From Chloroherpetonaceae bacterium (GTDB lineage: Bacteria > Bacteroidota > Chlorobiia > Chlorobiales > Thermochlorobacteraceae), in assembly GCA_025055975.1 (NCBI GenBank), contig JANWWM010000075.1:1-64000 (forward strand): a stretch of DNA of 64,000 bases, read 5' to 3'. Below, in pieces: positions 24,349 to 31,852 of this stretch. How positions within the stretch are numbered: the first letter of the stretch is position 1; the number at the start of each line of letters is the position of its first letter. The notes under the pieces are model-generated. The model saw nothing but the letters and a program-made list of their open reading frames with translations. It was not told the origin of the DNA and ran no database searches. The translations under genes were made by a program, and so were the position numbers.

Positions 24349-25334
24349 GGCGACTCCAACGCGAGCGCGGCAATCGGAACGGCGACGAGTTTCTTTTCCG
24401 CAAGCAGATACAGTTCGCTTGCCGTAACGCCAACGTCGACAAGCCGTCCCGCGCCATCGCCGACGAGCGCGGAAACGCTTTCCGCCGAGAGTTTCCCGAC
24501 GAGACGAAAGCCGCTTTGTTGCGTCGCGTCGAACACGAACACTTCTCCGCCATCGACGGCAAGAAGCCACTCGCTCAGTCTCTTTTCGCCGTTTGGCAAC
24601 GATCGAGCCACTTCTCCCGACGCGAGCGCCGACGGCGTTTTGAGCAAGCCCTTGCCGACCTGCGCGACGAAGTTTCCAAACAGGTCATAAACGAACAAGC
24701 ATTTCGCGCCTTCGTCGGAGACGAACACTTTGCCCGATTTCGTGGCTTGCAGTCGATTCGGTTCGATCAAGCGACCCGCGCCGCTGTTGAACCCGCCGAA
24801 GATGAACTGAATCGGATTTTGTCGTTGCTGCTGTTGCGAGGCGAAGGCGAAGGGATTGATGCGCAGAGCTTGCTGTTGCGCTTCATCGAGCAAAAACAAG
24901 TCGCCTTGCGGAGAAACGGAAACGCTGATGGGTCGCCACACTTGCGAAGAGAGAGAGCCGGAAACTTCCGTCGCCACTTGCGCCGATGCGTCGGGACGAT
25001 ACTGCAACAGCGCGACGAAATTCAAGTAGCGGTCGAAATGCGAAATGCGTTGATTGCCGCGATCGGCGACATAGACGTTCACGCCGTCGGTCGCAAGGTC
25101 TTTCGGCGCATCGAAGCCTTCGCGCTGAACGCCGAACCCGCCAATGTTGGCGAGGATTTTGCCTTTTGAGTCGAGACGCAAAATTTTGTTCGTCGCGCCT
25201 TCAATCACGTAACACTCGTTGAGCGATGGATTCACGGCGAGCGCGATTGCCTTTTGAAACGAGGCGACCAAGCGCGTCTCTTGCGCGAACGAAAGCGCGG
25301 GAAAAAGAAGCAAAGCGAAAACGACGCGCCTCAT
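24345..25334 (-). CDS. Exported NHL-like beta-propeller protein
   Basis: 329 residues with a signal peptide (MRRVVFALLLFPALSFAQ). Repeated propeller blades follow, of the NHL type: NKILRLDSKGKILANIGGFG, FDAPKDLATDGVNVYVADRG, NQRISHFDRYLNFVALL and GKVFVSDEGAKCLFVYDLFG. Such proteins usually serve as periplasmic binding scaffolds; no enzyme signature is seen. The frame is open further upstream, but the ATG at 25334 overlaps the transglycosylase stop (ATGA) and gives the signal peptide. Probably the second gene of a transglycosylase-propeller operon. Confidence 0.75.
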   Translation of the reverse strand: MRRVVFALLLFPALSFAQETRLVASFQKAIALAVNPSLNECYVIEGATNKILRLDSKGKILANIGGFGVQREGFDAPKDLATDGVNVYVADRGNQRISHFDRYLNFVALLQYRPDASAQVATEVSGSLSSQVWRPISVSVSPQGDLFLLDEAQQQALRINPFAFASQQQQRQNPIQFIFGGFNSGAGRLIEPNRLQATKSGKVFVSDEGAKCLFVYDLFGNFVAQVGKGLLKTPSALASGEVARSLPNGEKRLSEWLLAVDGGEVFVFDATQQSGFRLVGKLSAESVSALVGDGAGRLVDVGVTASELYLLAEKKLVAVPIAALALESP

Positions 25335-26338
25335 TTTTCGACCAAGCCGCTTGTCGTGTCGGGAGTTGAAAAGGCGATATACTCCGAAGTCGGAATCGAG
25401 CCGCCGTTTTTCGGAAGCAGAATTTTGAATCCCCTCGCGGGCGGTTGCGGCAAAGAGCGACCGCGAATCCAAGGATTCAGATACTTCACGGCTTTGAAGC
25501 TCGCGCCTTGCTCGATTGCCCACTGCGCCAAGTCGGGAATGGGTTTTTCGACGATGACGGTTCTCGTCTCGATGGGGCGATACGGCGCGACGGCTTCGTA
25601 ACCATACTTCGCGGGATTTTGCATGCACTCCTTGATGGCGGCGATGCGAAACACATAGCGCGACGTTTCGCGGTTGAGCCAAAGGTCGTAATAGTTTTTC
25701 GTTTGTTGGAAGTTCATCTCTCCCGAAACGCCACCCATTCCCATGTTGTAGCTTGCCGCCACGACCGCCCAATTTCCGAATCGCTTGTAGGCTTGGGTCA
25801 GATACTTGATGGCGACGTCGGTCGCCAGCTCGAAGTTGTAGCGCTCATCGACCTCGTCGTTCACGATGAGACCGTATTCGCGTCCCGTAACGGGCATGAT
25901 TTGCCAAATGCCCGCCGCGCCCGCGGGCGAGCGCAAATCCATCAATTTGCTTTCGGCGACGGCGAGATACTTGATGTCGTCGGGCAAGCCCGCCTCGGCA
26001 AGTTTCTTTTCGATGTGGGGAAAAAAACGACCTGCGCGTTTGAGATACATTATCATTTGGGCGCGGTCGTTGACGTTGATGAGAAATTCTCGCTCGAAGC
26101 GTTCAAAGACTTCCGCGTCTTCAAGCGGGACGCGCTCGCCGAAAAGATAGACCGAATCGCTCGGATTGAAGTTATAGTAAAATTCTGGCGGTCGAGGAGG
26201 CGCGAAATGTCGCGTCGTGTCGCGCTCAATGGCGGGCAAAGCCTCGCCGCTACGGTAATTGAACAACCCAACGAGCGCCGTGACAATCGCGGAAGCGAAA
26301 GCGACGGAGAGCAGAAACTTCAAGCGAGACCTTTCCAT
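25331..26338 (-). CDS. Membrane-anchored lytic transglycosylase (MltD-like)
   Basis: Cleaves the MurNAc-GlcNAc bond of peptidoglycan, forming 1,6-anhydro ends. 335 residues: an N-terminal signal-anchor (about 8-27), a linker, and an SLT domain with catalytic Glu in AVAESKLMDLRSPAGAAGIW (about residue 130), QIMPVTGREYGL, AIKYLTQAYKRFGNW and AASYNMGMGGV. The C-terminal region lacks recognisable LysM repeats. Neighbouring mreB and the tiny membrane proteins hint at a cell-shape context. Translationally coupled to the propeller gene. Confidence 0.88.
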   Translation of the reverse strand: MERSRLKFLLSVAFASAIVTALVGLFNYRSGEALPAIERDTTRHFAPPRPPEFYYNFNPSDSVYLFGERVPLEDAEVFERFEREFLINVNDRAQMIMYLKRAGRFFPHIEKKLAEAGLPDDIKYLAVAESKLMDLRSPAGAAGIWQIMPVTGREYGLIVNDEVDERYNFELATDVAIKYLTQAYKRFGNWAVVAASYNMGMGGVSGEMNFQQTKNYYDLWLNRETSRYVFRIAAIKECMQNPAKYGYEAVAPYRPIETRTVIVEKPIPDLAQWAIEQGASFKAVKYLNPWIRGRSLPQPPARGFKILLPKNGGSIPTSEYIAFSTPDTTSGLVEK

Positions 26339-26397: not shown

Positions 26398-26405
26398 TAT
26401 ATTTG
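26398..26405 (+). promoter_or_regulatory. -7 element TATATTTG before the tiny membrane gene
   Basis: TATATTTG matches the TAnnTTTG -7 consensus exactly and lies 49 bases upstream of the ATG at 26454. No TTG at ideal spacing is evident. Its presence supports the adjacent tiny ORF being a gene. Confidence 0.5.
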
Positions 26406-26453: not shown

Positions 26454-26567
26454 ATGAACAGAACGCGACATGCGCGGAAATCTGCTGCCATCGTATCCAA
26501 AAAAGACTTTTTTGAAATCATCGTTCTTGCTATCGTGGTTTTTATATGGGCGTTCATCGGGTTCTGA
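26454..26567 (+). CDS. Tiny single-pass membrane protein (37 aa)
   Basis: A 37-codon ORF from ATG 26454 to TGA 26565-26567. The first 18 residues are basic (MNRTRHARKSAAIVSKKD), followed by a single hydrophobic helix (FEIIVLAIVVFIWAFIGF). An AGGAG precedes the start, though only one base away, closer than ideal. A consensus TATATTTG element lies upstream. Layout (basic N-terminus, acidic D-x-x-E just before the helix) resembles the 44-residue protein at 26992. No family is recognised; candidates include a small subunit of a membrane complex. Confidence 0.55.
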   Translation: MNRTRHARKSAAIVSKKDFFEIIVLAIVVFIWAFIGF

Positions 26568-26668
26568 ACCCTGCGACATTCGCCCCCTTTTTCTCTTGCG
26601 TTGCTGCCAAAAATCGCGCTCGATGCGCCTGAAATCGCTTGACGCGGACGCGCGAACCTGCAGCGCGT

Positions 26669-26830
26669 CGTTCTGAACGGAGCGAGGAAGCCATCTGCGC
26701 GCCCTTGCGGATTCCTCGCTCGCGCTTGGAACGACAAAGAAAAACGCTCGGCGCGACAAAGCCCCCAGTCATTCTGAGCGGAGCGAAGAATCCATTTTCG
26801 CGCGAGCAAGAATGTTCAATTCGCAATTCA
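26669..26830. repeat. Cluster of at least three dispersed-repeat copies in the 26568-26991 gap
   Basis: The 424-base gap between the two tiny genes is mostly repeat. Copies: 26669-26692 (direct, TTCTGAACGGAGCGAGG core), 26709-26735 (inverted, GGATTCCTCGCTCG to TTGGAACGAC, almost identical to that at 14332), and 26768-26830 (direct, ATTCTGAGCGGAGCGAAG, then GAGCAAGAATGTTCAATTCG). A further inverted partial copy starts near 26855. Opposed copies could fold into a long hairpin. Nothing else is recognisable in the gap before the promoter at 26946. Confidence 0.75.
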
Positions 26831-26945
26831 CAGCCTCAAATTCTACGGTTCGCAGATTCCTCGCTCAAGCATAGAGCGTTAGCCATAAAACTTTTCTTGA
26901 CGAAAACTTAACGATAGTTTAACCGACCGCCAATCAAGGCGTGGT

Positions 26946-26953
26946 TAACTTTG
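26946..26953 (+). promoter_or_regulatory. -7 element TAACTTTG before the 44-aa membrane gene
   Basis: TAACTTTG is an exact TAnnTTTG match, identical to the element before ccmE, and lies 39 bases before the ATG at 26992. A TTTAA at about 26918 sits roughly 24 bases upstream, longer than the usual spacing. Confidence 0.5.
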
Positions 26954-26991
26954 CGTTGCCAAAGCAAACTACCTGCGGAGGAAGACGAACA

Positions 26992-27126
26992 ATGTGGTCG
27001 AAAATGCGCGTGAAAGCCTCGCGTTTCGTGGCGGAAAAGCGGCTGAGCCGCGAAGACATGATTGAAGCCTTGATGCTTTTTGCCGCCGTTCTGATGTTCG
27101 TGACGGCGAACAGTTGCCAATTCTGA
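26992..27126 (+). CDS. Small single-pass membrane protein (44 aa)
   Basis: 44 residues. The strong Shine-Dalgarno GGAGGAAG at 26977-26984 is well spaced from ATG 26992, which decides the start over an upstream in-frame GTG at 26941. The basic N-terminal half (VKASRFVAEKRLSRED) is followed by one hydrophobic helix (ALMLFAAVLMFVTANSC). The boundary pattern D-x-x-E before the helix is shared with the 37-residue protein upstream. It converges on mreB, six bases from its stop. No known family is recognised. Confidence 0.65.
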   Translation: MWSKMRVKASRFVAEKRLSREDMIEALMLFAAVLMFVTANSCQF

Positions 27127-27132
27127 CGCGAG

Positions 27133-28158
27133 TCATCGCTTCGTTTTTACCAAGACGTTTTTGTATTTCTCCAAGTTCTCCAAAATTTTGCCCGTGCCGC
27201 GCACGACGGCGGTTAGCGGGTCTTCGGCAACATAGACGGGCAACTTGGTTTCCTCGCTGATGCGCTTGTCAAGCCCTTTGATGAGCGCGCCTCCGCCCGT
27301 GAGCATAATGCCCCTGTCCAAAATGTCGGCGGAAAGTTCGGGCGGCGTCGCCTCCAAGCAGCGACGCACGGCGTTGACGATTTGGCTAATTGGTTCGGCG
27401 ATGGCTTCGCGGATTTCGGGCGAACTTACGTCGCGTTGTTCGGGCAAACTGGTTACCAAGTTCCTGCCTTTGACGGTGGCGATGAGTTCTTCTTCGAGTT
27501 CGTAGGCGGAGCCGATTTTGATTTTGATTTCTTCCGCCGTGCGCTCGCCGATGGCAAGGTTGTAGGTTTTGCGGAAGTGTTGCAAAATGGCGTTGGTGAT
27601 TTCATTGCCCGCGACCCTGATGGATTCGCCCGCCGCAATGCCTGAAAGCGAAATGACGGCGATGTCGGTCGTGCCGCCGCCAATGTCGACGACCATATTG
27701 CCGAAGGGCGCATCGACATCGAGTCCCATTCCAACCGCCGCCGCCATCGGTTCGGCGACGAGATAGACTTCCTTCGCGCCCGCATGTTCGGCGCTGTCGC
27801 GCACGGCGCGTTTCTCGACCTCCGTGATGCCCGACGGAATGCCAATCACCATTCGGCGAATTGACGACGAAAAATCTTTGAGCACCTTTCGGATAAGCCC
27901 TTTGATGAGTTCTTCGGCGGCTTCATAGTCGGCGATGACGCCGTCGGCAAGCGGCTTGATGGTGATGATGTCGCGGTGCGTTTTCTCATGCATTTGTCGC
28001 GCTTCGTTGCCGAGCGCGACCACTTTGCGCGTCGAGCGATCCAGCGCGACGATGGACGGCTCGTTCAGCACGATGCCCTTCCCTCTCACGAACACGAGCG
28101 TGTTCGCCGTTCCCAAATCGATCGCAATGTCTTTGGACAAAAAGTCGAAGAACGCCAT
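27133..28158 (-). CDS. mreB: Rod-shape-determining actin homologue MreB
   Basis: Bacterial actin that forms membrane-bound filaments guiding lateral-wall peptidoglycan synthesis. The 341 residues begin MAFFDFLSKDIAIDLGTANT and carry the actin-fold phosphate loops (DLGTANTLVF, VVDIGGGTTDIAVISL), AEPMAAAVG and LTGGGALIKGLD. The open frame extends 52 codons upstream, but the conserved opening fixes ATG 28158. A minus-strand TATCTTTG (plus 28233-28240) is a good -7 element. mreC/mreD do not follow; the next genes are the tiny membrane ORFs on the other strand. Confidence 0.96.
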   Translation of the reverse strand: MAFFDFLSKDIAIDLGTANTLVFVRGKGIVLNEPSIVALDRSTRKVVALGNEARQMHEKTHRDIITIKPLADGVIADYEAAEELIKGLIRKVLKDFSSSIRRMVIGIPSGITEVEKRAVRDSAEHAGAKEVYLVAEPMAAAVGMGLDVDAPFGNMVVDIGGGTTDIAVISLSGIAAGESIRVAGNEITNAILQHFRKTYNLAIGERTAEEIKIKIGSAYELEEELIATVKGRNLVTSLPEQRDVSSPEIREAIAEPISQIVNAVRRCLEATPPELSADILDRGIMLTGGGALIKGLDKRISEETKLPVYVAEDPLTAVVRGTGKILENLEKYKNVLVKTKR

Positions 28159-30409: not shown

Positions 30410-30472
30410 CTCTACCTCGTCGTCTGCTGCCACCCATTGCAAAACACGCATCAACAAAATAACGTCGTTGAT

Positions 30473-31852
30473 ATGCGTCGCACGGAATACGCCGTTCTTA
30501 TCGTCGATGACAACGACGAGGATGTTGCCCTATTGCAACGTTTTCTCTCGCGCAGCCCGATTCCGATTCGCTCCGTTTCGCTGGCGCAAACGGGAAACGA
30601 GGCGTTGGACAAGATCCGCTCGGAACGACCTGACTTTCTAATCGTCGGAGAGACGTTTGTTGATATGAGCGGCGACGAATTTCTCCGACATCTGTCGCAA
30701 ACGACGCCGCTCGATGCGATGCCCGTCTTGTGCCTTGTGAGCAACGATGCGTCAATCGCGGCGCAGGTCTCTCGCGCGCATCGGTTCGAGGTCGTCAAAA
30801 AAACGATGCTCACGCCCGAAAAACTGCGCGACGCGATGGCGGAAAGCATTGAGCGCGTCGAACTGCGCCAAGCCCGAAACCGCGCCGAAACGCTCTTCGC
30901 GCTTCTTTCGGAAAACATCTCTCACCCAATCGCTCTCACCGACGCGGAAGGCGTTTTGATAGCCGCGAACAAATCTTACCTCTCGCTGTTTCGTCTCGAT
31001 GAATCGAGCGTCGGTCAAAAACTCGGCGCGCCAAACTACGACGAGATTTTTCGCTCGTCCGAACATCAAGCCGAAGCGCGCGAAATCTTGCGCGACGGCG
31101 CGGGGAACGAGATTCGCGCGAAAGTCAAGCGGCTTTTCGTCGAGGAAGGGGGCAAGCGCGTCTTGATGCTCACGATTCTCGAAACCGCGCTCGACGACGA
31201 GCCAGACGCTTCAGACGCGCCAACGAGCGAACCCGCGGAGCGCGAGACGAACGTGCTCCGCAAATTTGAGCGCGACATTAAGGACGCGATTCAAACCGCT
31301 TCCATCATTTTGCGCGCCAAAACCAAGCGTCCCGACAAGAAAAATTTGGACGAGCTGCTCCAAGAGCATCGTCAATATCTGCGTTTCGTCGCTCTCGCCG
31401 CCGAATGCGCCACGCCATCGGATTCGAGTTCGACCATCAACCTCGGACGCTACGCCCAAGAAATTGTCAAGTGGTTCGAGAAGTCGCCCCTGATGCGCGA
31501 AGGGATTTCGTTCAGATGCGAATGCGACGAGGTTTGGGTCGAGCTTGGCGAAAGCGCGCTCGTCGGTTTCATTTTGAGCGAACTGATTTCAAACGCGCTT
31601 CAGCACGCTTTCAAAGGTCGTGGCGGCGTGGTTACGGTCGCAGTCGCCAAAGAAAAAGATCAAGCCGTCAGCGTCGTCGTGAGCGACAACGGCGTGGGCT
31701 TGCCCGCAAAGGTCGATAAGCCTTTTCGGACCGTCGGCTTGTTGGTCGTGAGCAGTCTCGTCAAAAGATTGGAAGGCAAGCTGGAAATCAAACGTCACTT
31801 GGGCACGAGCATTCGCGTCGTTTTTCCGCAGAAAAATCCGCGCGGCGCCTAA
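30473..31852 (+). CDS. Receiver-PAS-histidine-kinase-like protein lacking phospho-acceptors
   Basis: 459 residues: a receiver domain (6-122), a PAS domain (about 140-215), a helical dimerisation segment (262-300) and an HATPase_c domain (about 345-455). The receiver keeps Asp12/Asp13 (VDDNDED) and Lys109/110 but has Gly59 (DFLIVGE) where the phosphorylated Asp should be. The helix aligned with HisKA_2 (KFERDIKDAIQTAS) has no His. The ATPase has ELISNALQHAF and DNGVGL, so nucleotide binding may persist. It is probably a regulatory pseudo two-component protein, by alignment by eye. ATG at 30473 preferred to a TTG at 30437. Confidence 0.75.
   Translation: MRRTEYAVLIVDDNDEDVALLQRFLSRSPIPIRSVSLAQTGNEALDKIRSERPDFLIVGETFVDMSGDEFLRHLSQTTPLDAMPVLCLVSNDASIAAQVSRAHRFEVVKKTMLTPEKLRDAMAESIERVELRQARNRAETLFALLSENISHPIALTDAEGVLIAANKSYLSLFRLDESSVGQKLGAPNYDEIFRSSEHQAEAREILRDGAGNEIRAKVKRLFVEEGGKRVLMLTILETALDDEPDASDAPTSEPAERETNVLRKFERDIKDAIQTASIILRAKTKRPDKKNLDELLQEHRQYLRFVALAAECATPSDSSSTINLGRYAQEIVKWFEKSPLMREGISFRCECDEVWVELGESALVGFILSELISNALQHAFKGRGGVVTVAVAKEKDQAVSVVVSDNGVGLPAKVDKPFRTVGLLVVSSLVKRLEGKLEIKRHLGTSIRVVFPQKNPRGA

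Follow-up and report, generated by a model that had tools for sequence, protein, structure and literature searches.

Two very short reading frames lie next to each other at this locus, between a lytic transglycosylase gene and mreB, and the question is whether they are genes, whether they share an origin, and when and for what their products might be used. Within the window (the whole 64,000-nucleotide stretch that was analysed), ORF A (26454-26567, + strand) encodes a tiny single-helix membrane protein of 37 amino acids, MNRTRHARKSAAIVSKKDFFEIIVLAIVVFIWAFIGF, as judged by conservation, profiles, constraint and AlphaFold2. ORF B (26992-27126, + strand) encodes a paralogue of 44 amino acids, MWSKMRVKASRFVAEKRLSREDMIEALMLFAAVLMFVTANSCQF, an assignment drawn from conservation, profiles and constraint. 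The basic N-terminus, the D-x-x-E motif and the single hydrophobic helix that an earlier note on this DNA had described were found in both proteins. The net charge ahead of the motif is +6 in ORF A and +5 in ORF B, the motif reads DFFE and DMIE, respectively, and it is followed by 16 and 19 mostly hydrophobic residues up to the stop codon. AlphaFold2 modelled ORF A as one helix spanning residues 5-36, with a pLDDT of about 90 in the membrane part. An alternative GTG start for ORF B at position 26941, giving 61 amino acids, was dismissed since conservation is seen only from the ATG onward.

To examine whether the two ORFs are maintained as genes in this genome, a member of Chlorobiales of the Thermochlorobacteraceae type, we compared them among the species of the same genus (genus g1). 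Both are present in the same order in all three other species, with 61-70% identity, and their substitutions concentrate at codon position 3. The pN/pS values within the genus are 0.08-0.27 for A and 0.03-0.50 for B in the true frame, against 1.0-3.9 and 0.5-3.4, respectively, in shifted frames. Thus both reading frames, whose conservation in related genomes had been taken as a deciding point in the earlier note, are conserved and constrained. As far as sequence comparison can tell, ORF A and ORF B are real genes, kept in place by the three sister species under purifying selection. Their short length and the absence of a family annotation might suggest spurious ORFs, but the codon-level constraint and profile matches spanning three families make this extremely improbable. 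It is plausible that gene callers would pass over ORF A, as the earlier note supposed.

The search of relatives for conserved tiny ORFs, which had been proposed as a check, revealed a family of 17 members, distributed over three families of Chlorobiales and present in 11 of the 12 non-Chlorobiaceae genomes of this order (G000-G005, G007-G010 and G012). The A profile picked up the A-type proteins of genus g3, and further members were found in other families by reading the strand opposite the mreB 3' end. A joint profile gives the 17 members E-values of 1e-10 to 1e-16, scores that are high by construction, as the profile was built from these same members; the family is independently supported by its shared location next to mreB, by the constraint and by the cross-profile test. 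All 17 members fit one design of 33-44 amino acids: the first 14-21 residues form a basic N-terminus, a Ser/Thr helix cap is usually present, and the D-x-x-E motif leads into a hydrophobic C-terminal tail of 15-19 residues. The D and E of the motif are invariant in every member. Genus g1, G009 and G010 have two copies each. The A and B profiles align to each other with an hhalign probability of 93.9% (E 1.6e-7), and in a decoy test that kept composition and the two polar/hydrophobic halves, B members fell in the top 0.6% and A members in the top 2%. By these profile comparisons ORF A and ORF B are homologous to each other, paralogues of one family, which strengthens the earlier description of two tiny membrane proteins of similar design.

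No convincing match to the joint profile came from G006, from the Chlorobiaceae genomes or from a 297-genome sample of the phylum. Matches in the wider phylum (L104, L106 and L108) were dropped, as they had no fitting start codon or were not tiny proteins. On the evidence of these searches the family is confined, among the genomes sampled, to green sulfur bacteria of the Chloroherpeton/Thermochlorobacter side. This side of Chlorobiales comprises the gliding, flexing forms (PMC9318685), a coincidence that is suggestive, the distribution correlating with many other traits too. Searches of Pfam, NCBIfam, PHROGs, PADLOC and PDB gave no match to the tiny proteins, and in the literature, within an incomplete coverage, we found no account of tiny proteins of this lineage or of the family, its distribution or a phosphate link. 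With these data, a lineage whose tiny genes are hardly studied gains a microprotein family that is conserved and lacks annotation.

Analysis of the upstream regions confirmed a consensus -7 element before each ORF. The exact TAnnTTTG is found at 26398-26405 (+ strand; TATATTTG) for ORF A and at 26946-26953 (+ strand; TAACTTTG) for ORF B, and both elements are conserved in relatives. A -7-like element lies 52-90 nt before A in all seven species of genera g1 and g3, five of them with the exact TAnnTTTG, and TAACTTTG is located 46-54 nt before B in the four g1 species. The intergenic DNA of the window holds six TAnnTTTG sites against 1.0 +/- 1.0 expected (the highest of 300 simulations reached 5), an enrichment which indicates that the motif is meaningful in this genome. 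The strong ribosome-binding site noted earlier for ORF B, GGAGGAAG (26977-26984, + strand, 7 nt before the start codon), is present in this genome and weaker in the sister species, which carry GGAG or GGAA. The two ORFs do flank a cluster of repeats here, as had been observed. The window holds seven copies of the dispersed repeat GAGCGnAGCGArGAAnCC against 0.34 expected (20918, 23133, 26675, 26776, 32853, 32922 and 32991), and those at 26675 and 26776 lie between A and B in an insertion (26640-26880, unstranded). This insertion is unrelated to the system and was seen in no other genome compared. Rfam and tRNA scans of the window found nothing.

A second signal distinguishes the two promoters. 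Tandem direct repeats with an 11-bp period, resembling a Pho box, were found upstream of the B promoter at 26886-26923 (+ strand), where a degenerate repeat is followed by TTGAC, TTAAC and TTAAC. A perfect array of three TTRAC repeats with this period precedes B in all four g1 species (G000-G003) and in G010, which belongs to another family, and was reached in 0 of 1000 shuffles for each of these five genomes. The distance from the array to TAACTTTG is a constant 21 nt in the four g1 species. G004 has a partial array that 21 of 1000 shuffles matched, no array was found upstream of B in G009 and G012, and none precedes A in any species. Scored over both strands of the entire window, the B array is the best four-repeat site (18 of 20); the top scores for other periods are lower. 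In genome scans the array is rare and exceeds a control with the pattern reversed. This genome has 11 sites against 1 in the control, and 13 other genomes have 9 exact matches against 0; with one mismatch allowed, the counts are 10 against 5 in G001, 8 against 3 in G003 and 4 against 5 in G009.

In an alignment fold, the B promoter region (26908-26960 and its equivalents in L002-L004) also forms a covarying dyad of 21 pairs, four of them with double changes. TTAAC half-sites on the other strand face the B array and overlap the -7 element, constituting an inverted half-array. The dyad could be read as an RNA hairpin, as it covaries, yet it lies upstream of the presumed transcript start; for this reason the facing half-arrays are tentatively preferred. 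The TTAACNNNNGGTTAACTTTG dyad was also tried as a genome-wide operator and gave a good match at the B promoter alone, and the direct-repeat model was adopted instead.

Some of the other sites of the array may be connected with phosphate. The array is strong before the pst operon of G010; at one of the pstS genes of G009 its third repeat is degenerate, and the pstS genes of genus g1 have no more than two weak TTAA repeats. It also lies before orthologous TonB receptors in G000, G001, G003, G004, G008 and G010, and in G009 between a TonB receptor and a divergent gene. These receptors carry the domains PF07715, PF13715 and PF14905 and the gene after them encodes a secreted protein that belongs to no known family. 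Another array precedes a T9SS choice-of-anchor I protein. The receptor and the following secreted protein resemble the Flavobacterium johnsoniae pair Fjoh_0545-0546 of the phoBR operon, which is strongly induced by phosphate depletion (PMC8115612). Cyanobacterial SphR boxes consist of CTTAACCT with an 11-bp period in at least 3 copies, and E. coli Pho boxes end 10 bp before the -10 element (PMC1906773).

As in the Pho regulon (PhoB/PhoP/SphR), ORF B has tandem TTAAC repeats with an 11-bp period upstream of the -7 element, as in the CTTAACCT boxes, and it shares its array with the pst and TonB-receptor promoters of its relatives. It differs in the wider spacing between array and -7 element, which exceeds that of the TonB receptor by one period (21 nt, or 10 + 11, compared with about 9-10 nt for the TonB and pst promoters), and in the inverted half-array that overlaps the -7 element. 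OmpR-type regulators other than PhoB also bind direct repeats of such kind. Based on the pst and TonB sites and on the likeness to the F. johnsoniae pair and to the SphR boxes, we consider it likely that the array is a Pho box, which suggests a TTAAC-type Pho box for Chlorobiales. The earlier reading made no link to phosphate; the putative Pho-type operator of B points to phosphate limitation.

Taken as a whole, the data are explained best, with somewhat better than even confidence, by A and B being paralogous one-helix accessory subunits, A used routinely and B added at low phosphate. ORF A, with its TAnnTTTG promoter and no Pho box, would be made routinely, and ORF B, whose TAnnTTTG promoter carries the PhoB-type TTAAC array, would probably be induced by phosphate starvation. 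The basic N-terminus predicts an N-in topology, which would place D-x-x-E at the presumed cytoplasmic face of the membrane. Each of the two may be a small accessory subunit whose helix docks on a larger protein of the inner membrane, the D/E pair contacting that protein at the membrane surface, and B may substitute for A, or add to it, when phosphate is short. More tentatively, and rather doubtful as it stands, the two 40-residue proteins could constitute a subunit-exchange switch, one constitutive and the other phosphate-induced, that re-tunes an inner-membrane complex of the Chloroherpeton/Thermochlorobacter lineage during phosphate starvation. The family offers invariant residues and a likely inducing condition as testable handles on function.

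Judging only by size and design, membership of a membrane complex, one of the roles proposed in the earlier note, is still the most likely kind of role. Small accessory proteins of the membrane have precedents: CydX, AcrZ, KdpF, MgtS and CcoQ have 30-50 residues, one helix and no enzymatic domain, and are often missed in annotation. A and B are likewise tiny, single-helix and devoid of an enzymatic domain. They differ from these proteins in showing no similarity to them in Pfam, NCBIfam and PDB searches and in forming a paralogous pair whose D-x-x-E, presumed to lie at the membrane face, is invariant, and the tiny A/B family itself was not found described in the sources searched. In SecE/Sec61-gamma, a polar basic segment and a Ser plus acidic cap precede a single C-terminal helix. 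A and B share this layout by design only; they are shorter, have no profile similarity and no W-P motif, and are a paralogous pair. PscE and PscF of the green sulfur reaction centre are single-helix small proteins of Chlorobiales; reaction-centre subunits of this type were ruled out, since the family is absent from Chlorobiaceae, where the reaction centre is present, and no PDB chain matched.

The gene neighbourhood was compared among the genomes that carry the family. The usual order is bshA (identified by TIGR03999), tiny A, tiny B and, facing them, mreB. In the window, mreB occupies 27133-28158 (- strand) and the lytic transglycosylase, with an SLT domain, lies divergently at 25331-26338 (- strand). 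The tiny ORFs had been described as upstream of mreB; instead they lie downstream of it and convergent with it, an arrangement found in G000-G004, G009, G010 and G012. Linkage to mreB is not constant, as in genus g3 (G005, G007 and G008) a single A-type gene precedes an ABC ATPase away from mreB, near bshA in two of the three genomes. Of the two neighbours named earlier, mreB is thus conserved except in genus g3, and the transglycosylase adjoins in genus g1 only. The comparison indicates that in non-Chlorobiaceae Chlorobiales the tiny genes are inherited vertically beside mreB, and usually bshA too. Considering the genus g3 exception and the restriction of the transglycosylase to g1, gene position is put down to descent, and none of the neighbours is kept consistently enough to be named as the partner.

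These arrangements bear on the alternatives to the accessory-subunit reading. As regulators or subunits of the MreB elongation machinery, A and B would bind MreB or RodA/PBP2 from the membrane, a reading favoured by the convergent position next to mreB in the genomes listed above and by the transglycosylase adjoining in genus g1. However, convergent genes are not co-transcribed, vertical descent alone predicts a shared position, the A gene is separated from mreB in G005, G007 and G008, and both Chlorobiaceae and G006 have mreB without any family member. Given the genus g3 gene apart from mreB, position lends weak support to the earlier idea of regulators of wall machinery, and we regard the MreB reading as unlikely. 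Still less probable is a role in bacillithiol metabolism, with the tiny proteins serving BshA as membrane accessories. In G004, G008, G009, G010 and G012, bshA does precede them on the same strand by 55-140 nt, and in G005 it is one gene removed, but the linkage is broken in genus g1 and G007, a similar glycosyltransferase gene (bshA-type by position) directly adjoins mreB in the Chlorobiaceae, where the tiny genes are missing, and BshA itself should be a soluble metabolic enzyme.

The size, the one hydrophobic helix and the tandem copies would also fit type I toxin-like small hydrophobic peptides under antisense RNA control. Against this stand the fixed locus, the vertical inheritance and the strict D/E conservation, and no exact antisense TAnnTTTG was found. 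Folding of the 5' regions is not unusual (z -0.13 and +1.84) and gives no sign of a hidden start site, and Pfam, NCBIfam, PHROGs and PADLOC gave no match, making this reading quite improbable, if slightly less so than the one involving BshA.

We also detected other regulatory features in these genomes. The TonB receptor and secreted protein pair lies behind a conserved TTAAC array across the order (L168:2465-6990, L186:5471-10163 and L171:9465-13681) and represents a candidate phosphate-uptake locus of Chlorobiales. In the pst operon of G010 (L188:4479-4640), a terminator-like hairpin, AAAGGGACGC..GCGTCCCTTTTT, is located between the array with TATCTTTG and pstS, suggestive of a short leader RNA. 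In genus g1, TTGAC repeats with an 11-bp period form a second type of array between a DUF6175 protein and divergent genes (L173:6447-6458, L130, L123 and L183), and a different OmpR-type regulator may use it. Near the locus, positions 30437-31852 of the window encode a protein that reads, from its sequence only, as response-regulator/histidine-kinase-like.
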